From Marmoricola sp. (GTDB lineage Bacteria; Actinomycetota; Actinomycetes; Propionibacteriales; Nocardioidaceae), in NCBI GenBank assembly GCA_025964795.1, contig JAOPYC010000017.1:1-59050 (forward strand): 59,050 bases of DNA, written 5' to 3'. This document shows positions 41,779 through 50,091 of this stretch, piece by piece. Both the position numbers and the translations under genes were made by a program. The notes beneath the pieces were generated by a model, which made no database searches, was not told the DNA's origin, and was given only the letters and a program-made list of their open reading frames with translations. Position 1 is the first letter of the stretch; the number at the start of each line of letters is the position of its first letter.

Positions 41779-42072
41779 TTACTCGCCGCGGGAGATCTGG
41801 ATCTGCACCTGGCGGATCGAGAGCTGCACCCGCTGGCGCAGGCCCTCGGGAGCCACCTCGGAGCAGGAGCGGGCCACCAGGGTCTTCACCGTGCGTTCGA
41901 GGTCGTAGCGCGCCAGGCAGGGACCGCACTCGTCGAGGTGGTGCTGGATCTCGGCGCAACCGGCCTGGTCGAGCTCGTTGTCGAGGAAGAAGAAGACCCG
42001 CCCGAGGACCTCGGAGCAGTCGGTGTCTGGGGTGCTGCCCTGCACCGAGGGACCCTGCTGGTCGTGACTCAT
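41779..42072 (-). CDS. rsrA: RsrA/RshA-type redox zinc anti-sigma factor
   Basis: 97 residues that hold SigR until disulfide stress oxidises the zinc cysteines. The ZAS motif is H45-x3-C49-x2-C52 with the upstream ligand Cys19 (C-x25-H), the spacing of S. coelicolor RsrA (Cys11, His37, Cys41, Cys44). Cys39 and Cys70 are additional. The ATG at 42072 overlaps the sigR stop (ATGA). The 105 bases to bL37 contain no visible terminator. Confidence 0.93.
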
Positions 42073-42737
42073 CGCGAGCCGCCCTTCGTGGTGGGCGCCG
42101 AGCCGCTGGGGAGCAGGTCGTTCTCGCGGACGTAGCCGGTGAGCATCTCGCGCAGCTGGCGGCGTCCGCGGTGGAGGCGAGACATCACGGTGCCGATCGG
42201 CGTCTCCATGATCTCGGCGATCTCCTTGTAGGGGAAACCCTCGACGTCGGCGAGGTAGACGGCGAGGCGGAAGTCCTCCGGCAGTCGCTGCAGGGCGTCC
42301 TTGACGTCGGAGTCCGGAAGGTGCTCCAGCGCCTCCATCTCCGCGGACTTCAGGCCGCTCGAGGAGTGCGACTCCGCACGCGCCAGCTGCCAGTCCTCGA
42401 CGTCCTCGGCCATCGACTGCTGCGGCTGGCGCTGCTTCTTGCGATAGGTGTTGATGAAGGTGTTGGTCAGGATGCGGTAGAGCCACGCCTTCAGGTTCGT
42501 GCCCGGGCGGAACTGGTGGAACGAGCCGTAGGCCTTGGCGAAGGTCTCCTGCACCAGGTCCTCGGCGTCGGCGGGGTTGCGGGTCATCCGCATCGCCGCG
42601 GAGTAGAGCTGGTCGAGGAACGGGAGGGCGTCGCGCTCGAACCGTGCCTGACGGTCGCCCTCGCTCTCGGTGGCGGGATCGATCGTGGTCGGGTCGATGT
42701 CGACGAGGCCCAGGGCCTCGGTGTCGGAGTCACTCAT
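42069..42737 (-). CDS. sigR: ECF sigma factor SigR/SigH (thiol-oxidative stress)
   Basis: 222 residues: region 2 ([50 protein letters not shown]) and region 4 ([41 protein letters not shown]). It drives thioredoxin and other thiol-stress genes. ATG at 42737 preferred. The frame stays open to an ATG at 42803, giving a 22-residue extension like the longer unstable isoform of Streptomyces. A SigR-type promoter lies upstream. Followed by its anti-sigma gene with a four-base overlap. Confidence 0.94.
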
Positions 42738-42835
42738 CGCCCCCCAGACTACCGGGGACTCCACGGACGTGGATCTCTCGAGTGTGGCGAGCAACAGAAT
42801 CATCCCTCCTCGGTCAGCGGCGGATCCTCTGGTTC

Positions 42836-42862
42836 AACACGACCTCAGCCGTTTCGATTCCC
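42836..42862 (-). promoter_or_regulatory. SigR-type promoter in front of sigR
   Basis: Read on the minus strand: GGGAAT (42862-42857), 18-base spacer, GTT (42838-42836), an exact fit to the SigR/SigH consensus GGAAT-N18-GTT. It lies partly inside the end of the hydrolase gene. Transcripts would start around 42828, upstream of both possible sigR start codons, indicating positive autoregulation. Confidence 0.8.
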
Positions 42863-43489
42863 CGCGACCTCGCGGACGACCCATTCCAGCGTCGCCTCCA
42901 GGACGACGGCGAGCGCGTCCTCCTGGCTCAGCGGCGCCGACTTGGGGACCTTCATGGAGTGGTCGGCGGCCGGCACCACGGCCAGGTCGACGTCGTCCGG
43001 GAACTCCTCGGGCGTGCCGAACGGATCGCGCTCCCCCTGGATGACGAGGGTGCGTACCCGGGCCCGCTGGAGCTCCTCGAGCCGGGACTTCTCCGGCTTG
43101 CCGGGGGGATGCAGCGGGAACGAGAGCGCGAGCACGCCGCGGGCCCCGACCTGGCGTGCGATCCGGCACGAGGACCGCGCGCCGGCGCTGCGACCGCCCA
43201 GCACCAGGGGGCTGCGGGTGCGCAGGTTGTCGAGCACGGCGAGGTAGCACTCGTCGATCACCGGCGGCGCCGGCGCGAGCCGCTTCCCGGCCACGCGCCA
43301 CGGCATCTCCACCAGGGTCACCGAGATGTCCTGCTGAGGCAGCGTGCGGGCCAGCCGGACCAGGTCGGGGGCGCCGACTCCCCCGCCGGCGCCGTGGGTC
43401 AGCACCAAGGTGGCGATCGGCCGCTTGGCCCGGCGTACGAGCAGGCGGGCGTCGCCCCTCGGGGTCGGGACCAGGCGCTCGATCGGCAT
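42845..43489 (-). CDS. Alpha/beta hydrolase (dienelactone hydrolase/Tex30-like)
   Basis: 214 residues: oxyanion region THGAGGG (31-37), nucleophile Ser101 in GGRSAGA, and late GERDPFG and ADHSMKV supplying Asp and His. Substrate unknown. ATG at 43489 shares a base with the SRAP stop (TGATG); the frame above it is shadow. The C-terminal codons overlap the SigR promoter of the next gene. Confidence 0.85.
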   Translation of the reverse strand: MPIERLVPTPRGDARLLVRRAKRPIATLVLTHGAGGGVGAPDLVRLARTLPQQDISVTLVEMPWRVAGKRLAPAPPVIDECYLAVLDNLRTRSPLVLGGRSAGARSSCRIARQVGARGVLALSFPLHPPGKPEKSRLEELQRARVRTLVIQGERDPFGTPEEFPDDVDLAVVPAADHSMKVPKSAPLSQEDALAVVLEATLEWVVREVAGNRNG

Positions 43490-44295
43490 CAGCCGACCCT
43501 GTTCCCGGGGGCGCCGTCCGGGGGCGCGTCCGGTGGCAGCTCCTCGGGGGGCACGTGCTCCACAGGCAGGGGCTCGAGGAGCTCCGGGCCGTTGTTCTTC
43601 ACGTTGGAGACCAGCGTCGAGACCGGGAACGCCTCGAGCCGTCCGGGGGCCGCGGGCTCCAGCAGCGCCAGCAGGTCGTCCTGGTCGTGCCGTCGCGGGT
43701 CCAGCCACGCGTCGTAGCGGTCCGGGCTGAGCATCAGCGGCATCCGGTCGTGGATGTGGCCGAGCGAGTCCTCGGCCGAGGTGGTCAGCACCGTGCAGGT
43801 CCAGCGGAACCGGGTCGGGTCCTCCTCGTCCTTGGTGGGGTCGCGCCAGATCTCGTAGAGGCCGGCCATCGCGAGCACCCCGCCGTCGGCGGGGCGGATG
43901 AAGTAGGGCTGCTTGTGCGGCTTGCCGGCCTTCGTGAGCTGCTCGGTGGCGTACCACTCGAAGTAGCCGTCCGCCGGCAGGATGGCGCGGCGCTTCTCGA
44001 AGGCGCGCCGGTAGGCCGGCTTCTCGGCGACGGTCTCCATCCGGGCGTTGATCATCCGGCTGCCCACCGAGGCGTCCTTGGCCCAGAACGGCACCAGTCC
44101 CCAGGTGAGCACCCGCAGCTGGCGTTCGGGGGCCGACTCCTGCTCACCCGAGGGGGGCCGCTCGACGACGGCGTAGACCTCCTTGGTGGGTGCGACGTTG
44201 AAGTCGGGCTCGAGGTGCGGGAGGTCGTGACTGCGGATCTCGAACTCCTCGACGAGGTCCTCGGGCTGTCGGCTCGAGGCGTAGCGACCACACAT
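43489..44295 (-). CDS. SRAP (HMCES/YedK) abasic-site protein
   Basis: 268 residues. It protects single-stranded DNA abasic sites by forming a thiazolidine crosslink through Cys2, exposed after Met removal (MCGRYASS). Other conserved residues: Asn in PDFNVAPT, Glu in GYFEWYA and His in LGHIHDRMPLML. A Pro/Glu-rich tail (about 240-268) is extra. It corresponds to the Rv3226c position next to aroA. Coupled to the hydrolase downstream. Confidence 0.93.
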   Translation of the reverse strand: MCGRYASSRQPEDLVEEFEIRSHDLPHLEPDFNVAPTKEVYAVVERPPSGEQESAPERQLRVLTWGLVPFWAKDASVGSRMINARMETVAEKPAYRRAFEKRRAILPADGYFEWYATEQLTKAGKPHKQPYFIRPADGGVLAMAGLYEIWRDPTKDEEDPTRFRWTCTVLTTSAEDSLGHIHDRMPLMLSPDRYDAWLDPRRHDQDDLLALLEPAAPGRLEAFPVSTLVSNVKNNGPELLEPLPVEHVPPEELPPDAPPDGAPGNRVG

Positions 44296-44354: not shown

Positions 44355-45119
44355 TCAGCTGCGCGCGATCTCGTCGAGAAGGAGGCCGGCACCGTCGTCG
44401 TACGGCGGCAGCCCCTCGATCCAGACCCTCGCCCTCCCAGTACCGAGAGCCTGGTTCTCGACGAGATCGCGCAACAGCCCCACTCGCTGGGCGAGCAGGT
44501 CTTGGCGCCGGGCGAGCACCACGATCCTTCCGGGCCCGGCCTGGCAGATCGTCTCGTCGCCCGGGAAGGCGGTGCGGGCGCTCTCGGCCATCCGAACGAG
44601 GCTCATCGTCGACTCGAAGGCCCCTGCCCACACCGTCTCCTCGACGGGGACGGGCAGGTCGAGGACCACCAGCGCGTGGCTGGTGGCCGACGACTCCCTC
44701 CGCCCGTGCTCCCCCTGCTCGGCCGCGCGATAGACCTCGGAGAGCCTGGCCCGCAGGTGAGCGAGGCTGGCCAGGCCGGTCAGCGGGTCCTCGCACGAGA
44801 GCTGGTGGAGGTAGCCGAGCGTCTCCTCGCTCCACGCCACACCCAACGCGCGCACAGCCCGGTAGTCGGGCTCCCCTCCCAGAACGCGTGCGTAGGCGGA
44901 CCGCAGCCCGTCCAGTGCCTCACCCAGGTCGGCACCGTCACGGGCCATCTCGCGGCCCACCATCGCGCACGCGGCGCTTGCGTCACGTCCAGCGGCCAGG
45001 CGCTCGTCGACGGCCTCGAAACGGGCAGACAGCAGGGTCTGACCGCGCGATGCCGCCGGGGCGTCCGGGACCACCTCGGCTGGTGCGCCCTTGCGGCTGT
45101 GTGTCGCAAAGATGCCCAT
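44355..45119 (-). CDS. Degenerate GGDEF-domain protein
   Basis: 254 residues. An N-terminal helical part (about 30-105) precedes a diguanylate-cyclase-like domain opening with CEDPLTGLASLAHLRARL (DPLTGL signature). The active-site GGDEF is replaced by an AGPGR-like stretch (ICQAGPGRIVVLARR), and the substrate Asp of strand 1 is followed by PVPVEE rather than FKxxND. It therefore cannot be an active cyclase of the usual type; c-di-GMP or GTP sensing, or protein binding, is possible. ATG at 45119 with GGAGAG upstream; earlier starts at 45131 and 45167. Divergent from the sigma-fusion gene. Confidence 0.75.
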   Translation of the reverse strand: MGIFATHSRKGAPAEVVPDAPAASRGQTLLSARFEAVDERLAAGRDASAACAMVGREMARDGADLGEALDGLRSAYARVLGGEPDYRAVRALGVAWSEETLGYLHQLSCEDPLTGLASLAHLRARLSEVYRAAEQGEHGRRESSATSHALVVLDLPVPVEETVWAGAFESTMSLVRMAESARTAFPGDETICQAGPGRIVVLARRQDLLAQRVGLLRDLVENQALGTGRARVWIEGLPPYDDGAGLLLDEIARS

Positions 45120-45256: not shown

Positions 45257-47215
45257 ATGAGCCAGCTCGACGTCCAGGCTCCGGACCTCACCGACCCGGA
45301 GCTGATCTCCCGGGTCCGCGGGGGCGACGTGGCGGCGTACGGCACGCTCTTCTCCCGGCACGTCGAGGCGGCCACCCGCCTGGCGCGGGTGCTCATCGGC
45401 GGCTCCGACGCCGACGACCTGGTCTCCGAGGCCTTCGTCAAGGTGCTCAACGTCCTCCTCGCCGGCGGCGGACCCGACATCGCCTTCCGGGCCTACCTGC
45501 TGACCGCCGTACGCCGGCTGCACATCGACAAGGTGCGCAGCAACCAGCGCCTGACCACCACCGACGACCTGACAGCCTTCGACCCCGGGGTGCCGTTCAC
45601 GGACACGGCGGTGGCCGGCTTCGAGGGTGGCGCCGCGGCGAAGGCCTTCGCCTCGCTGCCCGAGCGCTGGCAGATGGTGCTGTGGCACCTCGAGGTCGAG
45701 AACCAGAAGCCCGCGGACATCGCCCCGCTCCTGGGACTGACGGCCAACTCGGTCTCGGCCCTCGCCTACCGCGCCCGGGAGGGCCTGCGCCAGGCGTTCT
45801 TGACCATGCACGCCGGCGACCTGGTCAGCGACGACTGCAAGGAGACCAACGGCCTGCTCGGCGGCTACGTGCGCGGAGCGCTCTCGCGCCGCGACGCCCA
45901 CAAGGTCGACGAGCACCTCGTGCACTGCCGGCGCTGCACCGCGGTCTACCTCGAGCTGAGCGAGGTCAACTCCTCCCTCGCCGGCATCATCGGGCCGGTG
46001 CTGCTGGGTGGTGCGGCGGCCGGTTACCTCGGGAGCGGTGTCGCGACCGGCGCCGGCGTGGGCCTGGTGGCGCTGCTCGGCCGGGCCAGGGATGTCGTCG
46101 TCAGTCACGTGGTGGCCACGGCAGCGACGACGGCCGTGGTCGGGATCGCCGGGATCACCGCCATCACCGCGATCCACCGAGGGACCGCCAAGGACGTCAC
46201 CTCGGCCGACGGTCCCTCGCAGAGTCGCATCGGACCCAGCTCGCGGTCGGACGCCTCCGGGTCCGGCGGCACCAGCGACAACGGCTCCAGCAGCGACCAC
46301 GGGGCCCCGACCACGGACCCGGGCCTGAACACGGCGATCGACCTGGGTGCGGGACTGCCCGCCACGGCGGACGGCACGGCGTCCTCCCCCGAGAGCGCCG
46401 GCACCACGGACGGCGAGAACGGGTCGCTGGCGTCCCCGACGCCCGACCCAGGCACCAGCACGGACGCCGGCGCGGGCGCCGGGGACACCGGAACGGGCGG
46501 CACGCCGGGAACCGGTGGCTCGACCACCACCCCGACGACGCCTGCCAAGCCCACCAAGCCTGCGAAACCCACCAAACCTGCGAAACCCGCGAAACCGACC
46601 AAGCCCGCGAAACCCGCGAAGCCGACCAAGCCCGCGAAACCCGCGAAGCCGGCCAAGCCGTCCAAGCCGCCGGAGCCGTCCAAGCCGACTCCGTCCAAGC
46701 CGACTCCGTCCGAGCCGGAGCCGTCCAAGCCGACTCCGTCCAAGCCGACTCCGTCCAAGCCGACTCCGTCCAAGCCGACTCCGCCCAAGCCCACCCCACC
46801 GAAGCCGGTGGAACCGACGAAGCCCAGCGCTGACGTCGCCGTACGCGTCTCCCGTGTGCAGGACCGCGACGGCCGCGTCACGGTCCGGGTCCAGGTGACC
46901 GGGGTGCCCTCGGGTGAGCAGGTGCGACTCACCGCTGCCACCAGCGACGGCGACCTGCACGCGCGCCGGGGTGCCTGCCGCCCCTCCGGCAGCGGGTTCG
47001 CGTGCGCGGCCTCACGCTTCAGCAGCGCCTTCCTCTTCGACTGGCACGGCAAGTCCGACGCCACGCTGACGTTCTCGGTCACCACGCCCGACGGCTACAC
47101 CGACAGCGCGTCCGGCAACAACCGCTCCACGGTGCAGGCCAGCGGCCACGCCGACGGGAACGGCAACGGCAACGGGCGCGGCAACGGGCGCGGCAACGGG
47201 CGCGGCCGAGGCTGA
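45257..47215 (+). CDS. ECF sigma factor fused to zinc anti-sigma, membrane and surface domains
   Basis: 652 residues in one chain: sigma region 2 (about 20-95), region 4 (about 130-185), a zinc-finger anti-sigma-like domain (C194-x25-H220-x3-C224-x2-C227), two hydrophobic stretches (about 242-275 and 285-307), a Gly/Ser/Thr linker, a Lys-Pro repeat stalk (430-523), a beta-rich CARDB-like domain with Cys574 and Cys583 (525-628), and a Gly-Asn-Arg tail. Families ECF52/53 of actinobacteria show comparable sigma-ZAS-membrane-extracellular designs. It is probably a membrane-tethered sigma factor released by signal or proteolysis; whether one or two helices span the membrane decides the side of the C-terminus. 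ATG at 45257 with AGAAGG upstream. The 137-base divergent region is comparatively AT-rich, with no promoter I can name. Confidence 0.88.
   Translation: MSQLDVQAPDLTDPELISRVRGGDVAAYGTLFSRHVEAATRLARVLIGGSDADDLVSEAFVKVLNVLLAGGGPDIAFRAYLLTAVRRLHIDKVRSNQRLTTTDDLTAFDPGVPFTDTAVAGFEGGAAAKAFASLPERWQMVLWHLEVENQKPADIAPLLGLTANSVSALAYRAREGLRQAFLTMHAGDLVSDDCKETNGLLGGYVRGALSRRDAHKVDEHLVHCRRCTAVYLELSEVNSSLAGIIGPVLLGGAAAGYLGSGVATGAGVGLVALLGRARDVVVSHVVATAATTAVVGIAGITAITAIHRGTAKDVTSADGPSQSRIGPSSRSDASGSGGTSDNGSSSDHGAPTTDPGLNTAIDLGAGLPATADGTASSPESAGTTDGENGSLASPTPDPGTSTDAGAGAGDTGTGGTPGTGGSTTTPTTPAKPTKPAKPTKPAKPAKPTKPAKPAKPTKPAKPAKPAKPSKPPEPSKPTPSKPTPSEPEPSKPTPSKPTPSKPTPSKPTPPKPTPPKPVEPTKPSADVAVRVSRVQDRDGRVTVRVQVTGVPSGEQVRLTAATSDGDLHARRGACRPSGSGFACAASRFSSAFLFDWHGKSDATLTFSVTTPDGYTDSASGNNRSTVQASGHADGNGNGNGRGNGRGNGRGRG
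46544..46825 (+). repeat. Lys-Pro tandem repeat in the sigma-fusion gene
   Basis: In-frame repeats encode KPTKPAKP blocks (9-base units such as AAGCCCGCG arranged in 27-base groups) followed by 15-base units AAGCCGACTCCGTCC encoding KPTPS. The segment is basic and proline-rich, suited to crossing a cell wall as an extended stalk. Copy number can change without frameshift. Confidence 0.85.
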
Positions 47216-47258
47216 CCCGCGCTGGTTGAGCAGAACCGGATCGGGTATTGATGTACCC

Positions 47259-47789
47259 ATGACCGTCACCCGACTGATCGCCCGCCCGCTGCTCGCCTCC
47301 ACCTTCGTCGTCGGCGGCGTGAGCGCGCTGAAGAACGCTCCCGCCCTGGCTGCCAAGGCCAAGCCGGTGACCGACCGCCTGCGCCCGGCCCTCGCAAAGG
47401 CGGCGCCCCAGGTGAGCATCCCCGAGGACACCGTGACGCTGGTCCGGATCAACGCCGCCGCGCAGATCGTCGCGGGCGTGGCCCTGGCCCGCGGGCGCGC
47501 TCCGCGGCTCTCGAGCACGGTCCTGGCCGCGTCGCTGCTGCCGACGACCGTGGCCGGGCACCAGTTCTGGAAGGAGTCGGACCCGACCGTCAAGGCCAAC
47601 CAGCAGATCCACTTCTTCAAGAACCTCTCGATGGTCGGCGGGCTGCTCCTCGCCTCGGTCGACACCGAGGGTCGCCCGGGCGTCGCCTGGCGGGCCAGGC
47701 ACGGTGCGGGCGCCGTACGCCGCGAGGCCAAGCACCTGCGCCGCGAGGCCAAGCTGCAGGCCAAGGTCGCAGCGAAGTCGATCGGCTAA
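47259..47789 (+). CDS. DoxX-family membrane protein
   Basis: 176 residues with about four hydrophobic segments. The N-terminal MTVTRLIARPLLASTFVVGGVSAL and the loop HQFWKESDP are typical of DoxX-like proteins in actinobacteria. The C-terminus is a basic helix (RREAKHLRREAKLQAK). Function unsettled (redox or sulfur-related roles are proposed for DoxX). I chose the ATG at 47259 over a GTG at 47226. Confidence 0.82.
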   Translation: MTVTRLIARPLLASTFVVGGVSALKNAPALAAKAKPVTDRLRPALAKAAPQVSIPEDTVTLVRINAAAQIVAGVALARGRAPRLSSTVLAASLLPTTVAGHQFWKESDPTVKANQQIHFFKNLSMVGGLLLASVDTEGRPGVAWRARHGAGAVRREAKHLRREAKLQAKVAAKSIG

Positions 47790-47801: not shown

Positions 47802-49094
47802 GTGGACGCACCCCCGGACATCGGACCTGACACCGGCGCGGCGCTGTGGCCGGCCCCGGTCGCGACGACGCCGGTCGACGTGCGCGTCGAGCTCCCCGGC
47901 TCGAAGTCGCTGACCAACCGCGCCCTGGTGCTGGCGGCGCTGTCCAACGCCCCCTCCGTCGTACGACGGGCCCTGCGCTCGCGTGACACCGAGCTGATGG
48001 CTGCCGCGCTGTCGACGCTGGGCTCGACCGTGGTGACGACCGACGACGACTGGCTGGTCTTCCCCGGGCCACTTCGCGGCGGCTCGATCGACTGCGGCCT
48101 GGCCGGCACGGTGATGCGGTTCCTCCCACCGGTGGCCGCCCTGGCCAAGGGCGTCGTCCGGTTCGACGGGGACCCGCACGCGCGGACCCGCCCGATGGCC
48201 GGCGTGCTGGACGCGCTGCGCGACCTGGGTGCGCACATCGACGACGAGGGCCGCGGCACGCTGCCCTTCACGGTCGCCGGCTCCGGCCGGCTGCGCGGTG
48301 GCGAGGTGATCCTCGACGCGTCCGCCTCGAGCCAGTTCGTCTCGGCGTTGCTGCTGGCCGGGGCGCGGTACACCGACGGGGTCGTCGTCCGCCACGTGGG
48401 GCCGCCGGTGCCCTCGCTGCCGCACATCGAGATGACGATCGCCTGCCTGCGAGAGCACGGCGTCGAGGTGTCGTCGGGCGACGACACGTGGACCGTGCCG
48501 CCGTCGAGGATCGAGGCGACCGACGTGACGATCGAGCCCGACCTGTCCAACGCCGCGCCCTTCCTGATGCTGGCGATGACCAGCGGCGGTCGGGTGCGCG
48601 TCCCGGGATGGCCGCGTGAGACCACCCAGGCCGGGGACGCGCTGCGCGACCTGCTCGCCCGGATGGGTGCCGAGGTGGTGCTCGACGACGAGGGGCTCAC
48701 CCTCACCGGCGGCCCGACGCTGCTGGGCCTGGACGCGGACCTGCACGACGCCGGCGAGCTCGCGCCCGCCGTGGCCGCCCTGTGCGCGCTCGCCTCCACC
48801 CCCTCGCGGCTGCGCGGCATCGCGCACATCCGCGGCCACGAGACCGACCGGCTGGCCGCGCTGTCCACCGAGCTGCGCGGGCTCGGAGCGTCGGTCACCG
48901 AGCACGACGACGGATTGTCCTTCGAGCCGGCCACGCTGCACGGGGGCACCTTCCACACCTACGCAGACCACCGGATGGCGCACGCGGGCGTCATCGTCGG
49001 CTCCGCCGTCGCGGGGGTGCTGGTCGAGGACGTCGCCACCACCGCCAAGACCTTCCCCGGCTTCGCCGACGTGTGGGCCGGGCTGCTGAGGTGA
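47802..49094 (+). CDS. aroA: 3-phosphoshikimate 1-carboxyvinyltransferase (EPSP synthase)
   Basis: Shikimate-pathway enzyme of 430 residues joining PEP to shikimate-3-phosphate. Signatures: [18 protein letters not shown] (about 32-49), [37 protein letters not shown] and the late DHRMAH. The LAGTVMRF stretch replaces LGNAGTA-type sequences, as in mycobacteria. GTG at 47802. It is followed by rsgA eight bases on, the mycobacterial aroA-rsgA order. Confidence 0.95.
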
Positions 49095-49101
49095 CGGCTC
49101 G

Positions 49102-50091
49102 ATGACGACCGGGCGCTACGGCAGCGAGGACCCGGAGAGCTATGAGCGGCCCCGTCGCCACACGCGCCCACGCACCAAGGACCGACCGGCCCACAAGGAC
49201 GCCGTGCCCGCGGTCGTCGTCACCGTCGACCGTGGCCGCTACACCTGCCGGCTCGGCGAGACCGAGCCGATCGTGACCGCGATGAAGTCCCGGTCGCTGG
49301 GACCGAAGGCGGTGATCACCGGGGACCGGGTGCGCCTGGTCGGGGACACGTCCGGTGACGACGGCTCGCTGGCCCGGATCGTCACGGTGGACGAGCGCAC
49401 GACCGTGCTGCGCCGTACGGCCGACGACGACGACCCGGTCGAGCGCGTCATCGTCGCCAACGCCGACCAGCTCGTCATCGTCACCGCGCTGGCGGACCCC
49501 GAGCCGCGGCAGGGCCTGATCGACCGGGCCCTGGTCGCGGCGTACGACGCGGGGATGGACCCACTGCTCTGCCTCACCAAGGCGGACCTCGCCGACCCCG
49601 AGCCGCTGCTGAGCAGCTATCGGCCGCTGGGCGTGCCGTACGTCGTGACGCAGCGCGGCGCCGACCTGGCCGAGATCGTCGAACGGCTCGCCGGCCGCAC
49701 CAGCGTGCTGCTCGGGCACAGCGGCGTCGGCAAGTCCACGCTGGTGAACGCCCTGGTGCCCGACGCGTTCCGCGAGGTGGGCGTGGTGAACACGGTGACC
49801 GGTCGTGGGCGGCACACCTCGGTGAGCGCGATCATGCTGGCGCTACCCGGTGGTGGCTGGATCGTCGACACCCCGGGCATCCGGTCGTTCGGGCTCGCGC
49901 ACGTCGACCCCGACAAGCTGATCGAGGCCTTCCCCGACCTGCACGAGCTCACCCGGGACTGCCCGCGCGGCTGCACGCACGGTGAGAACGAGCCCGAGTG
50001 CGGGCTCAGCGAGGCCACCGGTCAGGAGGCCGATCGGGTGCAGTCGTTCCGGCGGCTGCTGGCGAGCCGGGAGGCGGCCGAGCACTACTGA
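49102..50091 (+). CDS. rsgA: Ribosome small-subunit GTPase A
   Basis: Circularly permuted GTPase that helps mature the 30S subunit, 329 residues. OB-fold N-terminus (about 35-100), then G4 TKAD, P-loop GHSGVGKST and G3 DTPG in the permuted order. The C-terminal zinc knuckle is C-x3-C-x-H-x5-C (CPRGCTHGENEPEC). The start is ATG at 49102. Confidence 0.95.
   Translation: MTTGRYGSEDPESYERPRRHTRPRTKDRPAHKDAVPAVVVTVDRGRYTCRLGETEPIVTAMKSRSLGPKAVITGDRVRLVGDTSGDDGSLARIVTVDERTTVLRRTADDDDPVERVIVANADQLVIVTALADPEPRQGLIDRALVAAYDAGMDPLLCLTKADLADPEPLLSSYRPLGVPYVVTQRGADLAEIVERLAGRTSVLLGHSGVGKSTLVNALVPDAFREVGVVNTVTGRGRHTSVSAIMLALPGGGWIVDTPGIRSFGLAHVDPDKLIEAFPDLHELTRDCPRGCTHGENEPECGLSEATGQEADRVQSFRRLLASREAAEHY

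Follow-up and report, generated by a model that had tools for sequence, protein, structure and literature searches.

The window, by which we mean the whole 59,050-nucleotide stretch of Marmoricola sp. DNA that was analyzed, carries a gene in which sigma regions, a zinc anti-sigma domain, a predicted membrane part, and a predicted outer domain follow one another in a single chain. A divergent gene, here called the partner, lies beside it, with a promoter-like element between the two. The features at the locus are:

45257 to 47215, plus strand: fused sigma/anti-sigma/membrane/ectodomain gene, starting at ATG, 652 aa, frame unbroken
45293 to 45550, plus strand: sigma region 2 (residues 13-98)
45632 to 45808, plus strand: sigma region 4 (residues 126-184)
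45830 to 45982, plus strand: zinc anti-sigma domain (residues 192-242), with C194, H220, C224, and C227
45965 to 46084, plus strand: first hydrophobic segment, Gly/Ala-rich (residues 237-276), from hydropathy
46091 to 46177, plus strand: predicted transmembrane segment (residues 279-307), from hydropathy
46541 to 46816, plus strand: Lys-Pro-rich stalk (residues 429-520)
46829 to 47146, plus strand: C-terminal beta-sandwich (residues 525-630), with C574 and C583
45176 to 45202, minus strand: ECF-promoter-like element GCGTCAT-N16-CGTT, facing the partner, recognized by conservation between relatives
44355 to 45119, minus strand: divergent partner gene, 254 aa, predicted helical domain (24-108) plus GGDEF fold (~103-254) lacking the GGDEF signature
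43489 to 44295, minus strand: SRAP-family gene, 59 bp past the end of the partner gene
42845 to 43489, minus strand: alpha/beta hydrolase gene, meeting the SRAP gene at 43489
42069 to 42737, minus strand: sigR-like sigma gene (TIGR02947, 344.8 bits)
about 41779 to 42072, minus strand: zf-HC2 anti-sigma gene, following the sigR-like gene
47226 to 47789, plus strand: DoxX-family gene, starting 10 bp past the sigma stop
47802 to 49094, plus strand: aroA, following the DoxX gene
49102 to 50091, plus strand: rsgA, following aroA

The fused frame is real and intact. Sigma region 2 was recognized by Pfam (Sigma70_r2, residues 31-98, E 8.9e-8), as was the zinc domain (zf-HC2, residues 194-227, E 1e-7, above the cut-off), while region 4 (Sigma70_r4_2, residues 129-175) scored 22.5 bits, below its cut-off of 25.7; the chain as a sigma factor passed TIGR02937 (sigma70-ECF) with 49.7 bits against a cut-off of 42.9. 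The HxxxCxxC motif follows sigma region 4 as H220-LVH-C224-RR-C227, preceded by C194, and all four residues are invariant in a 50-row alignment. The whole chain has just five cysteines, three in the zinc domain and two (C574 and C583) in the C-terminal domain. Two loci, L144 and L150, are cut and do not enter the cysteine count. An earlier note, made from the letters of this DNA, had described one intact chain joining sigma regions 2 and 4, a zinc motif, hydrophobic segments, a Lys-Pro stalk, and a beta-rich C terminus with two cysteines, and this description was confirmed. At E<=1e-3 the fused protein has at least 2711 matching proteins among the best 7998 candidates scored, of which 120 were listed. 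Orthologues are present in 20 of the 24 genomes of the genus, with 69-100 % identity over residues 1-240; none of the 20 contains a stop codon, and 19 have open frames of at least 476 codons. The remaining orthologue begins at base 99 of its contig and seems to run off the contig.

The same note had proposed that the chain tethers a sigma factor to the membrane, and a placement with the sigma part inside and the sensor outside is predicted from hydropathy and charge. The best 21-residue hydropathy window falls at ~280-300 in 18 of the 20 genus orthologues (the exceptions are L150, which is cut, and L158), and in all 18 there are two to three Lys/Arg residues in the 15 residues before the window and zero to two after it, a positive-inside pattern. 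The AlphaFold2 model, however, leaves the membrane part unmodelled, with pLDDT <50 for residues 242-326 and no confident structure for residues 242-426. Residues 237-276 may form a membrane hairpin or may be the last helix of the anti-sigma domain; from hydropathy and charge we infer either a single pass or, with the hairpin, three, and either arrangement would place the C terminus outside.

Beyond the membrane part, the linker and stalk are long (residues 308-520), and overlapping Lys-Pro repeat arrays in the DNA span 46540-46807. We rejected the stalk as a family marker: in a scan of named genomes that returned 75 loci, 11 (L066-L076) matched the stalk alone and were dropped from all later counts, leaving 64 true relatives (L002-L065). 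The named and genus sets share two loci (L002/L145 and L003/L146, on zero-length branches), and the window is itself also L143 and L173. The C-terminal domain was modelled by AlphaFold2 with eight beta strands at residues 528-608 and one more at 623-628, with pLDDT mostly 95-98, and is predicted to be a CARDB/DUF11-like beta-sandwich of the Ig kind that would lie outside the cell. By eye, close relatives of the window protein are also CARDB/DUF11-like in their outer part, and the outer module is apparently present in several copies in one relative (P0051). NPCBM had no Pfam match in the window protein at E<=1, whereas it was found in both scanned Streptomyces relatives (L062 and L064, E 1.4e-24 and 6.3e-21); in one protein each of Glycomyces, Actinorhabdospora, Lentzea, and Saccharopolyspora, no Pfam domain scored above cut-off in the outer part. 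With NPCBM in these Streptomyces and a putative CARDB/DUF11-like domain here, the core of sigma regions, zinc domain, and anchor is common to the branches and the outer domain varies from one to another.

The comparison with ECF52 and ECF53 layouts drawn in the earlier note was correct. ECF52, represented by SCO4117 of Streptomyces coelicolor, likewise joins sigma regions 2 and 4, zf-HC2, a membrane segment, a Pro-rich stretch, and an extracellular-type C terminus in one chain (PMC5826349, partial text), and the window protein has this layout, with region 4 under the Pfam cut-off and the membrane segment assigned by hydropathy. The available part of that paper presents SCO4117 as the first ECF52 member characterized, with an unsettled promoter motif, an uncharacterized protease, and a carbohydrate-binding module of the smart00776/NPCBM type (PMC5826349). 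The differences lie in the outer domain given above, in the published ECF52 motif (CSGYN-17-SRHA, as against GCGTCAY-N16-CGTY here; PMC5826349, partial text), and in the neighbor, which is a TetR-like gene directly upstream in L062-L064 (named by eye) and the pseudo-GGDEF gene in the window. AtrA is a TetR-type protein. The gene atrA likewise stands directly upstream of SCO4117 (PMC5826349, partial text). The Streptomyces relatives (L062-L065) are 38-39 % identical to the window protein, and in our tree these four loci form one clade (100/100) separate from the window clade, although the fork above has support of 87/79 and several branches are long. ECF53 and ECF48 are likened to the window protein by description, as actinobacterial sigma factors that carry a zinc finger at the C terminus and one or two membrane helices and whose release by proteolysis is expected (PMC8999054, partial text). 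Another fused sigma/anti-sigma protein freed by proteolysis, IutY of Pseudomonas putida (ECF243), differs in belonging to a Gram-negative iron-starvation cell-surface signalling system (PMC8999054, partial text). The chain thus appears, from its sequence, to be a variant of the ECF52/ECF53 kind that lacks the NPCBM feature of ECF52 and is likened to ECF53 by description, and its novelty is limited because the layout is published (PMC8999054 and PMC5826349, partial texts). The suggestion that the C-terminal sensor is new holds insofar as the outer domain differs from the NPCBM of the Streptomyces ECF52 type, but it does not extend to the chain layout.

Two things had escaped the earlier note: the divergent pseudo-GGDEF gene, which is conserved, and the promoter-like element that separates it from the sigma gene. 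A Pfam search of the window copy of the partner gave no match, and a PDB sequence search with the partner alignment gave two chance-level matches only; its GGDEF fold was assigned by fold search, in which most VIA-align rows span residues 103-254, past the N-terminal helical domain. The GG(D/E)EF active-site signature had no match in any of the 49 aligned members, and judged by these sequences the partner is a signalling-enzyme-like protein that is probably inactive as a diguanylate cyclase. We found no published description of a fused ECF sigma with a linked GGDEF-type gene, nor of a conserved two-box element beside a fused sigma, in a literature search that most subscription journals lay outside, and the pseudo-GGDEF partner is apparently undescribed so far.

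Partner and fused sigma gene are tightly linked. In a class-wide sample, 29 of 296 genomes had a partner match and 27 of these were confirmed by BLAST; in 27 of the 27 confirmed copies, spread over seven families, the fused sigma gene stands divergently beside the partner. The two weakest matches were L200, with a fused sigma match nearby, and L201, which has none. Of the 64 named loci, 40 have the partner next to the fused sigma gene; upstream DNA is missing for L006, and the other 23 have no partner detectable using the window protein. Within the genus, the partner was found in 18 of 24 genomes, 17 of which also have the sigma orthologue, next to the partner; in the eighteenth (G022) a contig end truncates the partner, and the sigma orthologue was not found. 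Three genomes (G002, G008, and G010) have sigma and element and lack the partner, and by eye the next frame in that direction is a SRAP-like gene. Three others (G001, G003, and G004, each 99 % complete) have neither sigma orthologue nor partner.

The element between the two genes looks, from its sequence, like an ECF promoter. ECF promoters have a CGTC-like second box and a spacing of about 16 nt, and the CGTC/CGTT second box and constant 16-nt spacing found here resemble them in general terms. The window itself has two matches to GCGTCAY-N16-CGTY, with a mean of 0.59 in shuffled sequence and 10 of 100 shuffles reaching two; a lone match accordingly means little, and the weight rests on conservation. 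For the count we took the 250 bp that precede the sigma gene and the pattern [GC]C[GA]TCA[CT]-N16-CGT[CT] in the orientation facing the partner. All 20 genus orthologues have it, as do 13 of the 16 named family loci (the three misses are L012, L013, and L015), 19 of the 20 loci of the Lentzea group, and 3 of 4 others; it is in none of the 10 tested genus paralogues (of 21 found) and in none of the 23 named loci where no partner was detected. With shuffled upstream sequences the means were 0 to 0.045 matches per set; shuffles for the family sets and the class sample preserved single-base content only. Five loci were scored as misses: in L015, L033, and L041 the element lies farther out than 250 bp, and in L012 and L013 the partner has the inverted orientation. 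The match in L040 fits only with a later partner start than assumed. In the class sample, GCGTCAY-N16-(C/T)GT was present in 25 of 27 intergenic regions (shuffle mean 0.05; one on the other strand) and was not found in L185 and L198; with the stricter second box CGT(C/T) at N16 the count was 14 of 27. Across spacers of 10-23, only 16 recurs; 14 and 18 were each seen at a single locus, and no other length was seen.

The inverted loci fix the direction of the element. In L012 and L013 the element stands upstream of the partner, and we rejected the reading toward the sigma gene (CATGACGCG as printed on the plus strand), since the element follows the partner there. A separate sigma-facing copy with a looser first base, present at 6 of 20 genus loci and 9 of 16 named family loci, begins 28-47 nt ahead of the start codon. 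The window does not have it, nor do any of the 20 Lentzea-group loci, the 10 tested paralogues, or the 23 partner-less loci, and among the 28 class loci with a sigma match just one has it. Autoregulation is not general, given that this copy is missing in the window, the Lentzea group, and 27 of the 28 class loci.

A small regulon behind the element is possible. The pattern GCGTCAYG-N15-CGTY has four matches in the window's genome, as against one for the reversed pattern, and one to nine in each of the 24 genus genomes; single matches mean nothing, because the sigma-less genomes G001, G003, G004, and G022 have them too (5, 2, 8, and 2). The other two strict matches in the genome (C90 and C110) adjoin SDR-like and cytidylyltransferase-like frames, by eye, and point away from them. 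Upstream of rbpA (Pfam RbpA, E 2.5e-41), both boxes occur in a looser pattern at N16 (L080:1501-1527 and L084-L104), in 13 of the 18 sigma-bearing genus genomes with a sampled rbpA locus, 0 of 3 sigma-less genomes, and 0 of 3 with sigma and no partner, counts that ignore relatedness and concern boxes inside a longer conserved block that sigmaA-like boxes overlap. As a second target, rbpA is a lead that we do not claim. In one other family (L190-L197 and L199), a conserved A/T-rich stretch, AAAAAATATCCCG or close to it, precedes the element and is possibly UP-like.

What was observed directly is the set of domains in one frame, the tight linkage to the partner, and the element conserved at fixed spacing and facing the partner. 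On this footing we consider it reasonably likely that the chain is a membrane-held, zinc-locked, single-chain ECF-type sigma factor that, once freed, transcribes the divergent pseudo-GGDEF gene from GCGTCAY-N16-CGTY. Directly following region 4, the zinc domain would occlude the sigma in cis, and the anchor would hold the two on the membrane. Carried by the Lys-Pro stalk, the outer domain would sense the state of the wall or surface, and a signal would lead to stepwise cleavage, most likely by proteolysis, as has been proposed for ECF52 (PMC8999054, partial text). M50 proteases exist in the window's genome and equally in all 14 control genomes, so their presence is not discriminating. The freed sigma would recognize the element and transcribe the partner gene as its first target, and perhaps also the SRAP, hydrolase, and sigR-like genes that follow it in the same direction. 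In the least certain step, the partner would feed back on the sigma/anti-sigma pair.

Direct feedback by the partner is a reasonable proposal because the GGDEF domain of RmdB in Streptomyces venezuelae acts on the sigmaWhiG-RsiG pair, binding the sigma directly and keeping the anti-sigma off (PMC13232838, partial text). RmdB differs in being a GGDEF-EAL phosphodiesterase, whereas the partner here has no EAL domain, and WhiG/RsiG is another type of sigma/anti-sigma pair than the fused chain (PMC13232838, partial text). Going further, we tentatively suggest, as a possibility well short of probable, a two-gene envelope-to-transcription switch in which the dead-GGDEF protein, as the core target, binds the sigma or its zinc lock, either alone or together with a nucleotide (c-di-GMP, for example), and holds the switch open or resets it. 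If this is true, a pseudo-cyclase would be the cytoplasmic governor of a tethered sigma across several actinobacterial families.

Release could also be dispensable: a signal on the outer domain might alter the zinc domain in place, so that the sigma transcribes while tethered in an uncut chain. Conformational activation is known in the extended ECFs ECF41 and ECF238 (PMC8999054, partial text), sequence cannot show a cleavage site, and the linker and stalk are long. We regard this as unlikely, since proteolysis is the published expectation for ECF52/ECF53, with IutY as the characterized case (PMC8999054, partial text), and a truncated SCO4117 that lacks the zinc finger, the membrane region, and the carbohydrate module is still able to modulate development (PMC5826349, partial text).

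Rather little credence, in our view, attaches to the element being read by another regulator, for example a different ECF sigma or a transcription factor on two direct CGTCA repeats. In its favor, some loci (L174-L177) repeat CGTCA as the second box, and both boxes also occur before rbpA, within a block with sigmaA-like boxes; against it, the second box is mostly just (C/T)GT plus varying bases, the spacing is 16 in nearly all loci, no element was found next to tested paralogues or partner-less relatives, and the element faces the sigma gene too in 15 loci of two overlapping sets. That the chain is an ordinary ECF52/ECF53 member whose neighbor is a conserved bystander outside the pathway is improbable: the layout is published, and for Saccharopolyspora, Glycomyces, and Streptomyces relatives, which have the chain, tblastn with the window copy detects no partner (a strongly diverged copy could escape), but the linkage is 27 of 27 over seven families, adjacency survives inversion in L012 and L013, and G006 has a second, diverged partner beside a paralogous fused sigma.

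Actinobacterial single-chain sigma/anti-sigma proteins are little studied. For this branch, the promoter-like element of fixed spacing and the partner so tightly linked to it offer a target that can be tested, and the GGDEF fold of the partner would link a membrane sigma switch to nucleotide-signalling proteins.

Extra fused sigma paralogues occur in several of the genus genomes, with up to five matches per genome including the orthologue; 10 paralogue loci (L163-L172), at 39-45 % identity, are without the element. Fodinicola feengrottensis has two related fused sigma genes (L039 and L042), with the partner detected at one only.

The earlier statement that no separate anti-sigma gene is adjacent is true of both flanking genes; the sigR-like/zf-HC2 pair lies ~2.5 kb off on the minus strand. 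Short gaps separate the partner, SRAP, hydrolase, sigR-like, and anti-sigma genes (41779-44295, minus strand), and a sigma cascade via the sigR-like gene is conceivable. On the other side, the DoxX-aroA-rsgA order downstream of the fused sigma is seen again at several Nocardioidaceae loci, and cotranscription of the sigma gene with aroA and rsgA is therefore possible.
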